Shown here one piece after another: positions 17,786-21,463 of a stretch of DNA of 44,488 nucleotides. The DNA is from Saprospiraceae bacterium (lineage in GTDB: Bacteria; Bacteroidota; Bacteroidia; Chitinophagales; Saprospiraceae): the NCBI GenBank assembly GCA_020436935.1, contig JAGQWX010000042.1, positions 1 to 44,488 on the forward strand, written 5' to 3'. The notes beneath the pieces are model-generated. The model searched no databases and was not told the origin of the DNA. It was given only the letters and a program-made list of their open reading frames with translations. A program made the translations under genes and the position numbers. The stretch's first letter is position 1. Each line of letters begins with the position of its first letter.

Positions 17786-18954
17786 GACACCTCGATTTGT
17801 TGGTGAATGCGCTGCAGGGCCTGTTCCAGCTGAGCAACGTCGCTGCATAGGGATATTCTCAAATATCTTGCCCCGTTGGATCCAAAAATGTGACCCGGAG
17901 TAATGAAAACCCTGCTTTGGTATAAAATGTCATCCGCCATCTTTTCTGCAGAAGTCATTGTCTCAGGAATGCGCGCCCAGACAAACATCCCCACACCTCC
18001 TCTCAAAGGCTCACAACCCAGAGATTCCATGATTCGCATGGCTACTTCCTTTCTCTTGCTGTATTCGCCATTGAGATAGTCAAACCATTCAGCACCAAGA
18101 GACAAGGCCTTGACTGCTGCCTGTTGCATAGGCTTGAACATACCTGAATCCATATTGCTTTTGAATTTCAGCAAAGTATCAATGACCGGTTTGTCTGCAA
18201 CAACAGCACCAATTCTCCATCCTGCCATGTTGTAATTTTTACTCAGCGAGGTCAGCTCCAGTGCAGTGGATTTTGCCCCGGGTATTTGCAGGAGTGAAAT
18301 GGGTTCGTCATTGAGAATGAAGGTATAAGGGTTGTCATGACAAATCAAAATGTTGTGCTTTTGGCCAAATGCAATCAGCTCGCCAAAAAAATCTGTCGTT
18401 GCCTTCCCGCCTGTGGGCATATTGGGGTAATTGACCCACATTATTTTCACTTTCGAAAGGTCATGTTCTTCTTCTATTTTCTTCAGATCCGGCAACCAGC
18501 CTAGATTTTCTTCAAGATCAAAGTATAAGGGTTCTCCGCCTGCAAGTCTGGCACACATGGCATATGCAGGATATCCAGGGTTGGGTATCAAAACCTGATC
18601 ACCGTCATTGAGAAAACTCATGCTGATGTGCATGACTCCCTCTTTTGATCCAATCAATGGCAATATTTCCTTTTCAGGAACCAGAGACACATCAAAATGA
18701 TTTTTGTACCAACTGGCGAATGCTTCATTGAGCTCAGGTATGCCCTTGTAAGACTGATAACCGTGGGCATCTGGCCTCGATGCACTTTCAGCAAGAACAT
18801 TGGTTACACTTGCAGGTGGTGGTAAGTCAGGACTGCCTATTCCCAGGTTAAGTACCTTAGTGTCTGATTCTGAATTCATTTCCCTGATTTCAGCCAGTTT
18901 TTTTGCGAAATAGTAGGTCTCCGCTACACCTAGCCTCGATGCTTCCTCAATCAT
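17782..18954 (-). CDS. PLP-dependent aminotransferase (class I/II), probably aromatic or aspartate type
   Basis: The 390-residue protein is a fold-type I aminotransferase. It has LGIGSPDLPPP near the N-terminus, NPGYPAY, the HDNPYTFI cofactor-binding aspartate region, the Schiff-base lysine in SLSKNYNMAGWRIGA, and FVWARIP and RISLCS near the end. Between pheA and tyrA it most likely converts phenylpyruvate and hydroxyphenylpyruvate to Phe and Tyr with glutamate. Substrate cannot be read from sequence alone. Four-base ATGA overlaps join it to both neighbours, implying translational coupling. Confidence 0.9.
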   Translation of the reverse strand: MIEEASRLGVAETYYFAKKLAEIREMNSESDTKVLNLGIGSPDLPPPASVTNVLAESASRPDAHGYQSYKGIPELNEAFASWYKNHFDVSLVPEKEILPLIGSKEGVMHISMSFLNDGDQVLIPNPGYPAYAMCARLAGGEPLYFDLEENLGWLPDLKKIEEEHDLSKVKIMWVNYPNMPTGGKATTDFFGELIAFGQKHNILICHDNPYTFILNDEPISLLQIPGAKSTALELTSLSKNYNMAGWRIGAVVADKPVIDTLLKFKSNMDSGMFKPMQQAAVKALSLGAEWFDYLNGEYSKRKEVAMRIMESLGCEPLRGGVGMFVWARIPETMTSAEKMADDILYQSRVFITPGHIFGSNGARYLRISLCSDVAQLEQALQRIHQQIEVS

Positions 18955-19826
18955 ATATTTTCTGATCTAACTTTATTAAAAATAACATCCCTCAGGTCGG
19001 CCCTTTCATATACACCCAATTCTGTGTACTCGAGGGTAATTTCTGAAAGTTCGTCTTTTACACTTTCATACTGCACCAGATTATCAAACTCTAGATCCAG
19101 GTGGAAAAAGTATTCTCTAAACCTTCCCAACACAGGGAACGACTGAAGTTTGCTCATATTGACGCCATACTTATCCAGACACTGAAGGACTTTGAGCAAC
19201 TGTCCTTTCTTGTCAGGTACTCTAAAGTATATGGAGGCTTTATCACAATCTGTTGTGACCTCGCCCTGTTTTTCTCTGGCAATGACAAAAAATCTGGTAT
19301 AATTGGTTTTGTTGGTTTCTATTGACTTGCCTAAAACCTCCAAACCAGTCAATCTTGCTGCATCCATGCTTGCGATACAGGCGTGTTTGGGGTTGGGATT
19401 TTCAGCGAGCTCAATGGCACTTAAGGCTGTATCTTTTGATTCTATCAACCTTGCTTCCGGCATGGTTCTCAGGAACTCAAGGCATTGGTTCAATGCCATT
19501 GGATGTGAAAATACTTTTCTGATCTGGTCTTTTTTTGTACCCGGATTGACCAGGAGATTGTGCTGGATTCTCAGGTAAACCTCACCCAGGACATGAAAAT
19601 TCCTTTCTCTCAATATGCGGTAGTTCTGGAGGATGGTACCGGCTATGCTGTTCTCAATGGCCATAACTGCAAAATCGACAGCACCTGATTCCAGCTGCTC
19701 ACCCAAAATATCAAAAGTGTCAGCAGGCAATAATTGCAGATTTTTACCTGCAAAAAACTTGCGGGCTGCCTGATCATGGAAAGATCCTGCGTATCCCTGA
19801 ATCGATATTTTTAATTCCTGCTCCAT
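18951..19826 (-). CDS. pheA: Prephenate dehydratase
   Basis: The 291-residue protein has the dehydratase domain (about residues 5-190), with IQGYAGSFHDQAA, AIENSIAGTI and the conserved TRF in NYTRFFVIA. A C-terminal ACT domain (about 200-280, KGQLLKVLQCLDKYGVNMSKLQSFPV) follows, which in relatives binds Phe for feedback inhibition. It makes phenylpyruvate from prephenate. As first gene of the aromatic operon it sits 25 bases downstream of the attenuator terminator. The unfused form fits the separate chorismate mutase encoded at the end of the operon. Confidence 0.94.
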   Translation of the reverse strand: MEQELKISIQGYAGSFHDQAARKFFAGKNLQLLPADTFDILGEQLESGAVDFAVMAIENSIAGTILQNYRILRERNFHVLGEVYLRIQHNLLVNPGTKKDQIRKVFSHPMALNQCLEFLRTMPEARLIESKDTALSAIELAENPNPKHACIASMDAARLTGLEVLGKSIETNKTNYTRFFVIAREKQGEVTTDCDKASIYFRVPDKKGQLLKVLQCLDKYGVNMSKLQSFPVLGRFREYFFHLDLEFDNLVQYESVKDELSEITLEYTELGVYERADLRDVIFNKVRSENI

Positions 19827-19851
19827 TTTTTATTTTATCAATGCCATAAAC

Positions 19852-19924
19852 AAAAAAAGGAGTCTCTCAGTGAGGACTCCTTTTTAGATTTATCTCTTAA
19901 CATTCTAAAATATCTGTCCTCACT
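19852..19924 (-). promoter_or_regulatory. Phe/Tyr transcription attenuator: antiterminator and terminator hairpins
   Basis: On the minus strand, AAAAAGGAGTC (19885-19875), a 10-base loop, GACTCC (19864-19859) and T7 (19858-19852) make an intrinsic terminator inside the leader of pheA, not at a gene end. AGTGAGGAC (19924-19916), directly after the leader-peptide stop, is perfectly complementary to GTCCTCACT (19877-19869). That second segment takes half of the terminator's left arm plus its loop. The two folds exclude each other. A ribosome stalled at Phe or Tyr codons leaves the first segment free, forming the antiterminator. A ribosome at the stop codon covers it and allows termination. Confidence 0.87.
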
Positions 19925-19981
19925 CTACCTAAGGTAAAAGTAAAAAGGAAAGAAGTTAAAGAATGTATATGAACTATTCAC
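19925..19981 (-). CDS. Aromatic leader peptide (attenuator)
   Basis: A GTG-initiated 18-codon frame encodes MNSSYTFFNFFPFYFYLR, ending in TAG at 19927-19925. Six of the residues are Phe and three are Tyr, clustered just ahead of the stop. This composition and the position before a leader terminator identify a translation-sensing leader peptide for the Phe/Tyr operon. The two amino acids are exactly the products of the downstream genes. No ATG is available in frame; a TTG farther upstream could add a few residues. It lies 98 bases before pheA. Confidence 0.85.
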   Translation of the reverse strand: MNSSYTFFNFFPFYFYLR

Positions 19982-20278
19982 AATTAATTTTTTGCGAAAG
20001 TAAATCAAAAAGAGGTTCTGCTGCTAATTTTATTTGATTTTTTTTCAATACTCACATTTCGGCCCATGCTTGTTAAACTATAAACAATTACAAAAGTGCG
20101 TACTTATTTCGACTTTTGAATCAGATGCCATCTGTTCATTCTATCTATGACTGCCATTCGATTTTTTGTTTGGTTAATGTATTGTTAAGCCATAAATTAT
20201 GAGGTAACATAGCCAGGATTTCAATACGTCATATCAAGAAATCAAACACTATTATTCACCCTGTAAATCATAAAGACC

Positions 20279-21463
20279 ATGAGAAACTTATACTTTATAT
20301 TCATGGCTATCACCATGTTTGTTAGCTGTAGATCCATTGAAAAAATGGTGGAGTCTGGCAATTACGACCAGGCATTTGAATTCGCTATTGACAAATTAGC
20401 AGGCAAAAAGAACAAGGAAACCAAGTATGTCAAAGGACTTGAAAAAGCATTTGATGAATTACAGGCCAGAGATGAGTCAAGAATAGATTACTTGTTGCAA
20501 ATACCTCACGATCATCTGTGGAGTGAAATCGCATCCACTTATGAAAGAATGAACAGGAGGCAAAATGTCTTAAGACCAATCTTACCCTTGGTCAGTGAAG
20601 ATGGGTACAAAGCAAGATTTACATTCAATGATTATAGTGCGGATATTGCTGATGCGAAAAACAAGGCTGCAAAATACAACTTTGATACCGCCATGGAAAT
20701 GATTGAAGATGCGGAGGATGGAGACAAGTTTGCCGCCCAGAAGGCTTACGAGCTTTTCGCTGAAGTCATGAAATATGATCCAAATTTTGAAAACGCACGA
20801 GAAATGCGTGCACTTGCCTACGATCTTGGCGTGGAACATTATGGCATTGAATTTTTGGTGAATGCTCCGGGAAGAAGCAGGGCTGCTCTTGATGCAGAAA
20901 TTTCAAGATTCAATATCTCAGCATACAACACTTTCTGGAGAAAGTATCACCGCATTGACGCATTCAATGAAAGCGATTTTGATGGTATCTTTTCTGTCTC
21001 AGTAGATGATATCGATTTTGGTACAGAGCGGGAATTTGTCAATCAATTTGATGTTGAAAAAATCATAACCGAAGGTTTCAGACCCGTTTTGGACAATAAC
21101 GGTGTGGCCATGAAGGACAGCTTGGGCAATGTCATCAAGGAACCACATAAGGTCAAAGTCAAAGCTTTTGTATCAGAAATACGACGTGAAAAGAATGCGG
21201 TTTTGGTGGGTAGCATCAGATACTTTGCTCAGAACATGGATTATGCTGCTTCAACAACTCCCATTCAGGTAAACTTCAACTTCTCAGATAATGCTGCCGA
21301 CTTCCGTGGTGATGTAAGGGCTTTGGATCAAAACCTGGTCAATCTTACCAAAAAGAGACTATTGGCATTCCCCGATTCATATGATGTTACAAGCATTCTT
21401 GGGGATAAGTTTTTTGATGAAGTGAAAAGGAGAATACCCAATATCAGGATTTATCAGGCATAG
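20279..21463 (+). CDS. Lipoprotein with TPR-like repeats
   Basis: The 394-residue product has a lipobox ending MFVSC (Cys 17). The remainder is mostly helical with TPR-like segments at about 20-45 (VESGNYDQAFEFAIDKLAGKK) and 135-185 (AKNKAAKYNFDTAMEMIEDAEDGDKFAAQKAYELFAEVMKY is spread over these). A beta-rich half follows from about 235. I do not recognise a named family. It should be on the periplasmic face of a membrane, perhaps as a scaffold. The divergent aromatic leader lies 297 bases upstream, and no shared operator was found. Confidence 0.8.
   Translation: MRNLYFIFMAITMFVSCRSIEKMVESGNYDQAFEFAIDKLAGKKNKETKYVKGLEKAFDELQARDESRIDYLLQIPHDHLWSEIASTYERMNRRQNVLRPILPLVSEDGYKARFTFNDYSADIADAKNKAAKYNFDTAMEMIEDAEDGDKFAAQKAYELFAEVMKYDPNFENAREMRALAYDLGVEHYGIEFLVNAPGRSRAALDAEISRFNISAYNTFWRKYHRIDAFNESDFDGIFSVSVDDIDFGTEREFVNQFDVEKIITEGFRPVLDNNGVAMKDSLGNVIKEPHKVKVKAFVSEIRREKNAVLVGSIRYFAQNMDYAASTTPIQVNFNFSDNAADFRGDVRALDQNLVNLTKKRLLAFPDSYDVTSILGDKFFDEVKRRIPNIRIYQA

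Follow-up and report, generated by a model that had tools for sequence, protein, structure and literature searches.

Leader-peptide attenuation belongs to the textbook biology of enteric bacteria, and the enterobacterial pheA leader (Rfam Phe_leader, RF01859) is a leader-peptide RNA for Phe. A 2010 paper was aware of no leader-peptide system demonstrated beyond Proteobacteria and Actinobacteria, except for the atypical ermC leader (PMC2965389). The Bacteroid-trp RNA (RF01692) is a cis-regulatory RNA of Bacteroidetes (PMC2864571) that has been likened to the Escherichia coli Trp leader (PMC6414381), and leader-peptide candidates, with strong clues for attenuation, were reported upstream of amino-acid biosynthesis operons of Flavobacterium psychrophilum (PMC9723704). 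The same work describes in Flavobacteriaceae a structured 5′ element upstream of pheA that has no Rfam family; it shares its gene and its phylum with the element analysed here, although in that work's section on 5′ cis-regulatory RNAs neither a peptide nor codons nor a mechanism are described for it (PMC9723704). The view, held in the initial annotation of our locus, that such leaders are much less known in Bacteroidota than in enteric bacteria therefore stands only in part, because Bacteroid-trp (PMC2864571) and the F. psychrophilum candidates (PMC9723704) had already been reported. Among the literature matches listed (the best 30 of 103 in one search), no title or abstract described a Phe/Tyr attenuator in Bacteroidota.

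The DNA analysed, hereafter the window, is a stretch of 44,488 nt from a Saprospiraceae bacterium. Its minus strand very probably carries a ribosome-mediated transcription attenuator of an operon comprising pheA and genes for an aminotransferase, TyrA and a DAHP synthase/chorismate mutase, which would sense charged tRNA-Phe and tRNA-Tyr. The region aligns end to end with the Phe_leader model (1-125 of 125), but its score of 22.4 bits (E 0.13; gathering score 55) is that of a chance-level match; unlike the enteric pheA leader, the window mixes Phe and Tyr codons, and its operon makes both amino acids. Bacteroid-trp differs in serving the trp operon and Trp; it did not match the window at its gathering score, nor was it one of the 16 hits to 19780-20060 at an E of 5 or less. 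Indeed, none of 4227 Rfam families matched the window at gathering score, and thus no T-box or riboswitch did, and in 14 relatives the sole match was IRE_II at L094:4499-4529, away from the leader. The features of the site and of the operon, in the order of transcription, are as follows.

20002-19995, minus strand: promoter-like -7 box TACTTTCG, which differs from TAnnTTTG at one base and begins 21 nt ahead of the leader GTG
19981-19925, minus strand: leader ORF with a GTG start, VNSSYTFFNFFPFYFYLR, and the stop codon TAG at 19927-19925
19966-19960, minus strand: segment 1, ACATTCT, 5′ arm of the protector helix, within leader codons 6-8
19924-19916, minus strand: segment 2, AGTGAGGAC, 5′ arm of the antiterminator, directly 3′ of the leader stop
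19910-19904, minus strand: inner antiterminator arm TTTTAGA, whose partner in the fold is TCTAAAA at 19888-19882
19906-19900, minus strand: segment 2b, AGAATGT, 3′ arm of the protector helix, overlapping TTTTAGA at 19910-19904
19885-19852, minus strand: intrinsic terminator AAAAAGGAGTC...GACTCCTTTTTTT, identified by fold and covariation
19877-19869, minus strand: segment 3, GTCCTCACT, 3′ arm of the antiterminator, overlapping the inner part of the terminator left arm and the loop
19826-18951, minus strand: pheA, prephenate dehydratase (Pfam PDT, E 7.9e-56)
18954-17782, minus strand: class I/II aminotransferase (Pfam Aminotran_1_2, E 3.1e-55)
17848-16943, minus strand: tyrA, prephenate dehydrogenase (NCBIfam PRK08507, above its cut-off, match from residue 22)
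16904-15816, minus strand: DAHP synthase fused to chorismate mutase (Pfam DAHP_synth_1, E 3.9e-33; CM_2, E 3.2e-23)

The initial annotation had described a GTG frame of 18 codons with six Phe and three Tyr, whose stop adjoins a 9-base segment, and this is correct to the base in the translation of the minus strand; a near relative (L031) has TTG at the place of the GTG. The complementarity that it had proposed between this segment and the loop and left arm of a terminator located 25 nt before pheA was confirmed with exact coordinates: segment 2 (19924-19916) and segment 3 (19877-19869) are perfectly complementary over 9 bp, and the terminator stem pairs AAAAAGGAGTC (19885-19875) with GACTCCTTTTT (19864-19854), followed by a T run to 19852 and, 25 nt further on, by the pheA ATG (19826). 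Folding both segments also bore out the mutually exclusive antiterminator and terminator, which cannot coexist because they share bases. At -19.2 kcal/mol (z -5.1), the fold of the antiterminator segment was equalled by 0 of 200 shuffles; that of the terminator segment, at -18.0 kcal/mol (z -2.9), was equalled by 2 of 200. The fold of the full leader contains in addition a third helix, absent from the initial annotation, in which 19966-19960 pairs with 19906-19900 and which we call the protector helix.

The four genes downstream of the leader imply an operon that makes both Phe and Tyr. It is plausible that Tyr is sensed because the operon makes it. The match of PheA to an ACT domain is weak (21.5 bits, below the cut-off of 27). 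The best family match of TyrA begins at residue 22, and its true start is therefore probably the ATG at 17788, overlapping the aminotransferase stop, which would place the start of the mechanically called ORF 20 codons too early. Among relatives, an aminotransferase or tyrA match lies downstream of pheA in 62 of the 67 loci with at least 1300 nt available there (flanks of 1.5-2 kb only), which leaves five loci for comparing Tyr codons with the presence of Tyr genes.

We evaluated the distribution of the element in three sets of pheA loci. A PheA match was present in 105 of 150 genomes sampled from the family, which left 103 loci once the short fragments G039 and G005 had been set aside; 80 further loci were the best 80 of 132 from a search of genome contigs; and 60 were hand-picked after a search of the phylum in which 258 of 296 genomes matched (8 from the same order, 32 from the same class and 20 from other classes). 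A strict test, which requires a terminator and a short ORF whose last 16 residues include at least six Phe/Tyr, was applied to the 169 distinct loci among the first 183, and was positive in 115 of them versus 0 of 507 dinucleotide shuffles. Applied to the upstream regions of other ORFs of at least 150 codons, it was positive in 1 of 186, namely the pheA leader of locus L011 itself. Lowering the threshold to five Phe/Tyr yielded 122 of 169 pheA loci, 2 of 507 shuffles and 3 of 186 other ORFs. A laxer test, asking for a stretch of 10 residues with at least five Phe/Tyr in a short ORF up to 700 nt upstream, with neither terminator nor deduplication, was positive in 94 of the 103 family loci (at least two of them, L008 and L144, apparently by chance), 68 of the 80 genome-contig loci, 8 of 8 from the order, 29 of 32 from the class and 5 of 20 from other classes; with a threshold of six, 5 of 243 shuffles were positive. 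Among the positives that were inspected, four (L008, L144, L207 and L228) look like chance. Units of ORF plus terminator were listed for all the loci from the class except L205-L208, and some of these leaders have only four or five Phe/Tyr in their last 16 residues because the leader extends past the cluster.

Nine family loci fell below five in the laxer test. Three of them (L003, L143 and L169) end at a contig edge, with 217, 147 and 68 nt of upstream sequence available, and in three others (L134, L151 and L157) pheA lies behind a DAHP synthase gene; the remaining ones are L153, L173 and L024. The leaders of L153 (MKNSFFVNFIFICIYEPS) and L173 (MKNNFFINFIIICFYKPL) have fewer Phe/Tyr and several Ile codons, with their terminators kept, and perhaps represent a shift in the amino acid that is sensed.

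For the ten loci without a credible leader at pheA we fetched up to 5 kb of upstream sequence, and in seven of them a Phe/Tyr leader with a terminator was found before an upstream gene for DAHP synthase (or DAHP synthase/chorismate mutase). In the stretches for L134, L151 and L157 (L249-L251) pheA starts around 100-150 nt behind the DAHP synthase gene, and in those for L205-L208 (L253-L256) around 2.4 to 2.7 kb behind it; we infer that in the latter pheA lies in the same operon as the leader-bearing gene. The other three (L024, L144 and L008; upstream stretches L252, L257 and L258) have pheA and no credible leader within the fetched sequence, of up to 5 kb. From the seven relocated leaders, the element seems to belong to the head of the operon rather than to pheA as such.

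The antiterminator, the terminator and the protector helix all covary across relatives. Among 23 hand-picked near relatives, 86.5% of the antiterminator cells are paired, with 26 double-changed cells and a covariation score of 0.377, and 97.9% of the terminator cells are paired, with 18 double-changed cells; in both cases none of 500 shuffles was as high, and versions of the antiterminator helix slid along the alignment reached up to 50% pairing. Two finer counts were not significant: five antiterminator pairs have a double change versus 3.9 in shuffles (126 of 500 as high), and the terminator has nine further pair types versus 10.2 (499 of 500 as high). When arms were swapped between 113 loci, the native combination stood out with z 18.0 for the antiterminator and z 11.7 for the protector helix. 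For instance, the counterparts of the protector arms in L031 and L002 differ in their bases and keep their complementarity. The signal of any single locus is weak, with the antiterminator above the 95th percentile of swaps in 32% of loci and the protector helix in only 22%. The initial annotation had proposed relatives as a check, and they do keep both the Phe/Tyr codons and the complementary segments.

The sequence TAnnTTTG, which we take to be the Bacteroidota -7 promoter element, is found in the 45 nt that precede the leader start in 67 of 133 loci. Farther upstream it turns up in 9 of these 133 loci (45-90 nt) and in 21 (90-135 nt), and a single locus has it within 45 nt of pheA; the 21 distal boxes may belong to first units in loci where a second leader was picked (see below). 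This concentration just upstream of the leader suggests, from the position of a motif, that transcripts probably start before it rather than downstream of 19925, a start that the initial annotation had named as counter-evidence.

The Phe/Tyr codons are also in register with the stop. Their share at codons 1 to 12 before the leader stop is 0.01, 0.04, 0.10, 0.53, 0.65, 0.64, 0.77, 0.69, 0.74, 0.78, 0.72 and 0.60, and then drops. These codons thus begin around four codons ahead of the stop, and a ribosome that stalls there would release the antiterminator. When unfinished transcripts are folded under an assumed ribosome footprint, this release sets in around three to four codons before the stop. 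For the window, the model gives the terminator a probability of 0.96 both when the ribosome sits at the stop and when there is none; the masking at the stop is a consequence of the assumed footprint. The probability becomes 0.49, 0.19, 0.31 and 0.65 when the A site is placed over Phe codons 15, 13, 11 and 10, respectively, and 0.95 and 0.79 when it is placed over Tyr codons 16 and 14. Once the whole hairpin is made, the mean equilibrium probability of the terminator over the 113 loci is at least 0.75 wherever the ribosome stalls, and no more than 19% of these loci fall below 0.5. The register thus suits attenuation in the unfinished transcript, and at equilibrium it does not in most relatives; since the terminator is still favoured at equilibrium, antitermination would have to be kinetic.

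The features that mark a ribosome-mediated attenuator, namely a leader ORF rich in codons for the product, an intrinsic terminator before the first gene and a covarying antiterminator exclusive with it, are all found here. The reading of the locus as ribosome-mediated attenuation, already put forward in the initial annotation, is supported by conservation with controls, covariation and codon register, from which we infer the regulation. Transcription would begin just ahead of the leader, and translation at the GTG. With Phe and Tyr plentiful, the ribosome would reach the stop and cover segment 2 (19924-19916), leaving segment 3 free to form the terminator. With either tRNA in short supply, it would stall at a Phe or Tyr codon around four or more codons upstream of the stop; segment 2, then free, would pair with segment 3 before the right arm of the terminator is made, and RNA polymerase would read through. 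In the absence of leader translation, segment 1 would pair with segment 2b, segment 2 would be held and the terminator would form by default. In our models, this default termination through the protector helix is clear in the window, whose untranslated unfinished RNA has 18.5 expected protector pairs versus 1.8 for the antiterminator, and is not general in relatives, at least three antiterminator pairs being predicted in 63% of 113 loci.

The same arrangement might arise without attenuation. The ORF is conserved, and 40% of the residues over 133 leaders (selected for Phe/Tyr) are Phe or Tyr, as would suit a functional aromatic-rich small peptide, perhaps of the membrane, followed by a hairpin acting as a plain terminator or processing site. 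However, what is kept is the aromatic character and the distance to the stop, whereas Phe and Tyr interchange and the length and the other residues drift; moreover, the RNA helices covary and are mutually exclusive, and the leader travels with the head of the operon, all of which makes a functional peptide very improbable. We consider it extremely improbable that the hairpin terminates constitutively or serves another gene, and that the T-rich ORF arises incidentally from the T-richness of the 5′ leader. The region is indeed T-rich, and a consensus terminator scan listed the 19885-19852 hairpin on the plus strand only, but the neighbouring long ORF (20279-21463, plus strand) is divergent and does not, therefore, end at this terminator. 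T-rich composition as the cause was rejected in view of the 0 of 507 dinucleotide shuffles and of the codons of the sensing zone, with 474 Phe (TTY) versus 6 Leu (TTR) codons in frame and 275:93 and 246:234 in the other frames, a comparison that is only partly independent since the leaders had been selected for Phe/Tyr.

Within ribosome-mediated attenuation, the leader might respond to slow translation in general, or to just one of the two amino acids, rather than to Phe and Tyr jointly. Phe exceeds Tyr in the sensing zone (0.58 versus 0.38 of Phe+Tyr+Trp), Tyr is no less frequent in the five loci whose downstream flank lacks an aminotransferase or tyrA match (a share of 0.50 versus 0.42 in the others), and in the window stalls at Tyr codons relieve the terminator less than stalls at Phe codons at equilibrium. 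Against this, all 133 leaders contain Tyr and 128 contain at least two (these leaders having been selected for Phe/Tyr), and the ratio of Phe to Tyr is near that of the long ORFs of the window while Trp is depleted (0.043 versus 0.107). We thus regard a single or unspecific signal as unlikely, and favour joint sensing of Phe and Tyr, in which a shortage of either one would suffice for readthrough. Joint sensing of Trp was also considered; Trp occurs in 40 of 133 leaders, yet its share is below that of the long ORFs of the window, so Trp sensing is not claimed.

Other leaders occur in the same genome. Locus L244 contains a His leader, MNKVHHTHHHHFAAEAVGRH (HHTHHHH), at 1178-1241 with a TTG start and a terminator from 1272 (reverse complement), before hisG, and locus L245 a Trp leader, MNKMIWWWRIDITYNGNQ (WWW), at 1323-1380 with a terminator from 1408 (reverse complement), before trpE. 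Attenuation therefore looks like a general strategy in this genome. The pheS locus and two ilvD loci showed no leader unit with matching codons beyond the level of long coding stretches, and no Rfam family matched any of these own-genome loci (L244-L248, including the trpE locus) at gathering score.

Scanning 800 nt upstream of pheA, or less where the contig or the fetched stretch ends, revealed 38 distinct loci with two units of leader plus terminator in series (39 of 243 before deduplication), including L114, L129, L130, L160 and L172; the window has a single unit. These amount to 34 of 101 distinct loci from the family, 3 of 68 from genome contigs, 0 of 8 from the order, 1 of 29 from the class and 0 of 19 from other classes. 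Among 675 shuffles, two units appeared in none and one unit in three. A promoter-like box lies within 45 nt of unit 1 in 31 of 38 loci and of unit 2 in 0 of 38, and none of the 38 has a box between the terminator of unit 1 and the second leader, which are 8-52 nt apart in 37 loci and 206 nt apart in the remaining one. Both units carry an antiterminator of their own (z 9.3 and 6.9 in the swap test), and pairing within a unit exceeds pairing across units in 33 of 38 loci. The two units have a similar Phe/Tyr make-up, and a division of labour in which one senses Phe and the other Tyr is unsupported, with mean Tyr shares of 0.39 in unit 1 and 0.45 in unit 2.

On a tree of few columns (around 96 PheA residues, 111 rows) the tandem trait is clustered, with 23 changes versus 31.3 in shuffles, at least ten of them forced by supported branches; a doubled clade (L004, L033, L035 and L038) lies near the window, whose nearest rows, L031 and L002, are single. 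In L123, L146 and L148 a lone unit lies 213-246 nt before pheA, where first units are usually located, and a second leader was not found behind it; a loss of unit 2 is possible.

In all, most of the Bacteroidia sampled show the same attenuation logic ahead of their aromatic amino acid genes, with short 5′ leaders that start at GTG, TTG or ATG. We think it likely that these leaders form an old, uncatalogued family of the class Bacteroidia, placed on the head gene of the aromatic operon and doubled in around one third of the family sampled. If so, in the doubled loci the polymerase would pass two ribosome-controlled terminators reading the same code, and both the response and the tightness of repression would be squared.

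Ribosome-mediated attenuation is a known kind of control, and what the relatives add is the arrangement of two leader-plus-terminator units in series. No tandem leader-peptide attenuators reading the same signal appeared among the literature matches listed. The tandem attenuators of Salmonella mgtCBR likewise have two leader ORFs in series on one leader RNA, which answer different signals, ATP and proline (PMC3641672). The two-unit relatives differ from them in repeating the same Phe/Tyr code, each unit with its own intrinsic terminator, and offer a natural test of how stacked identical attenuators sharpen a response.
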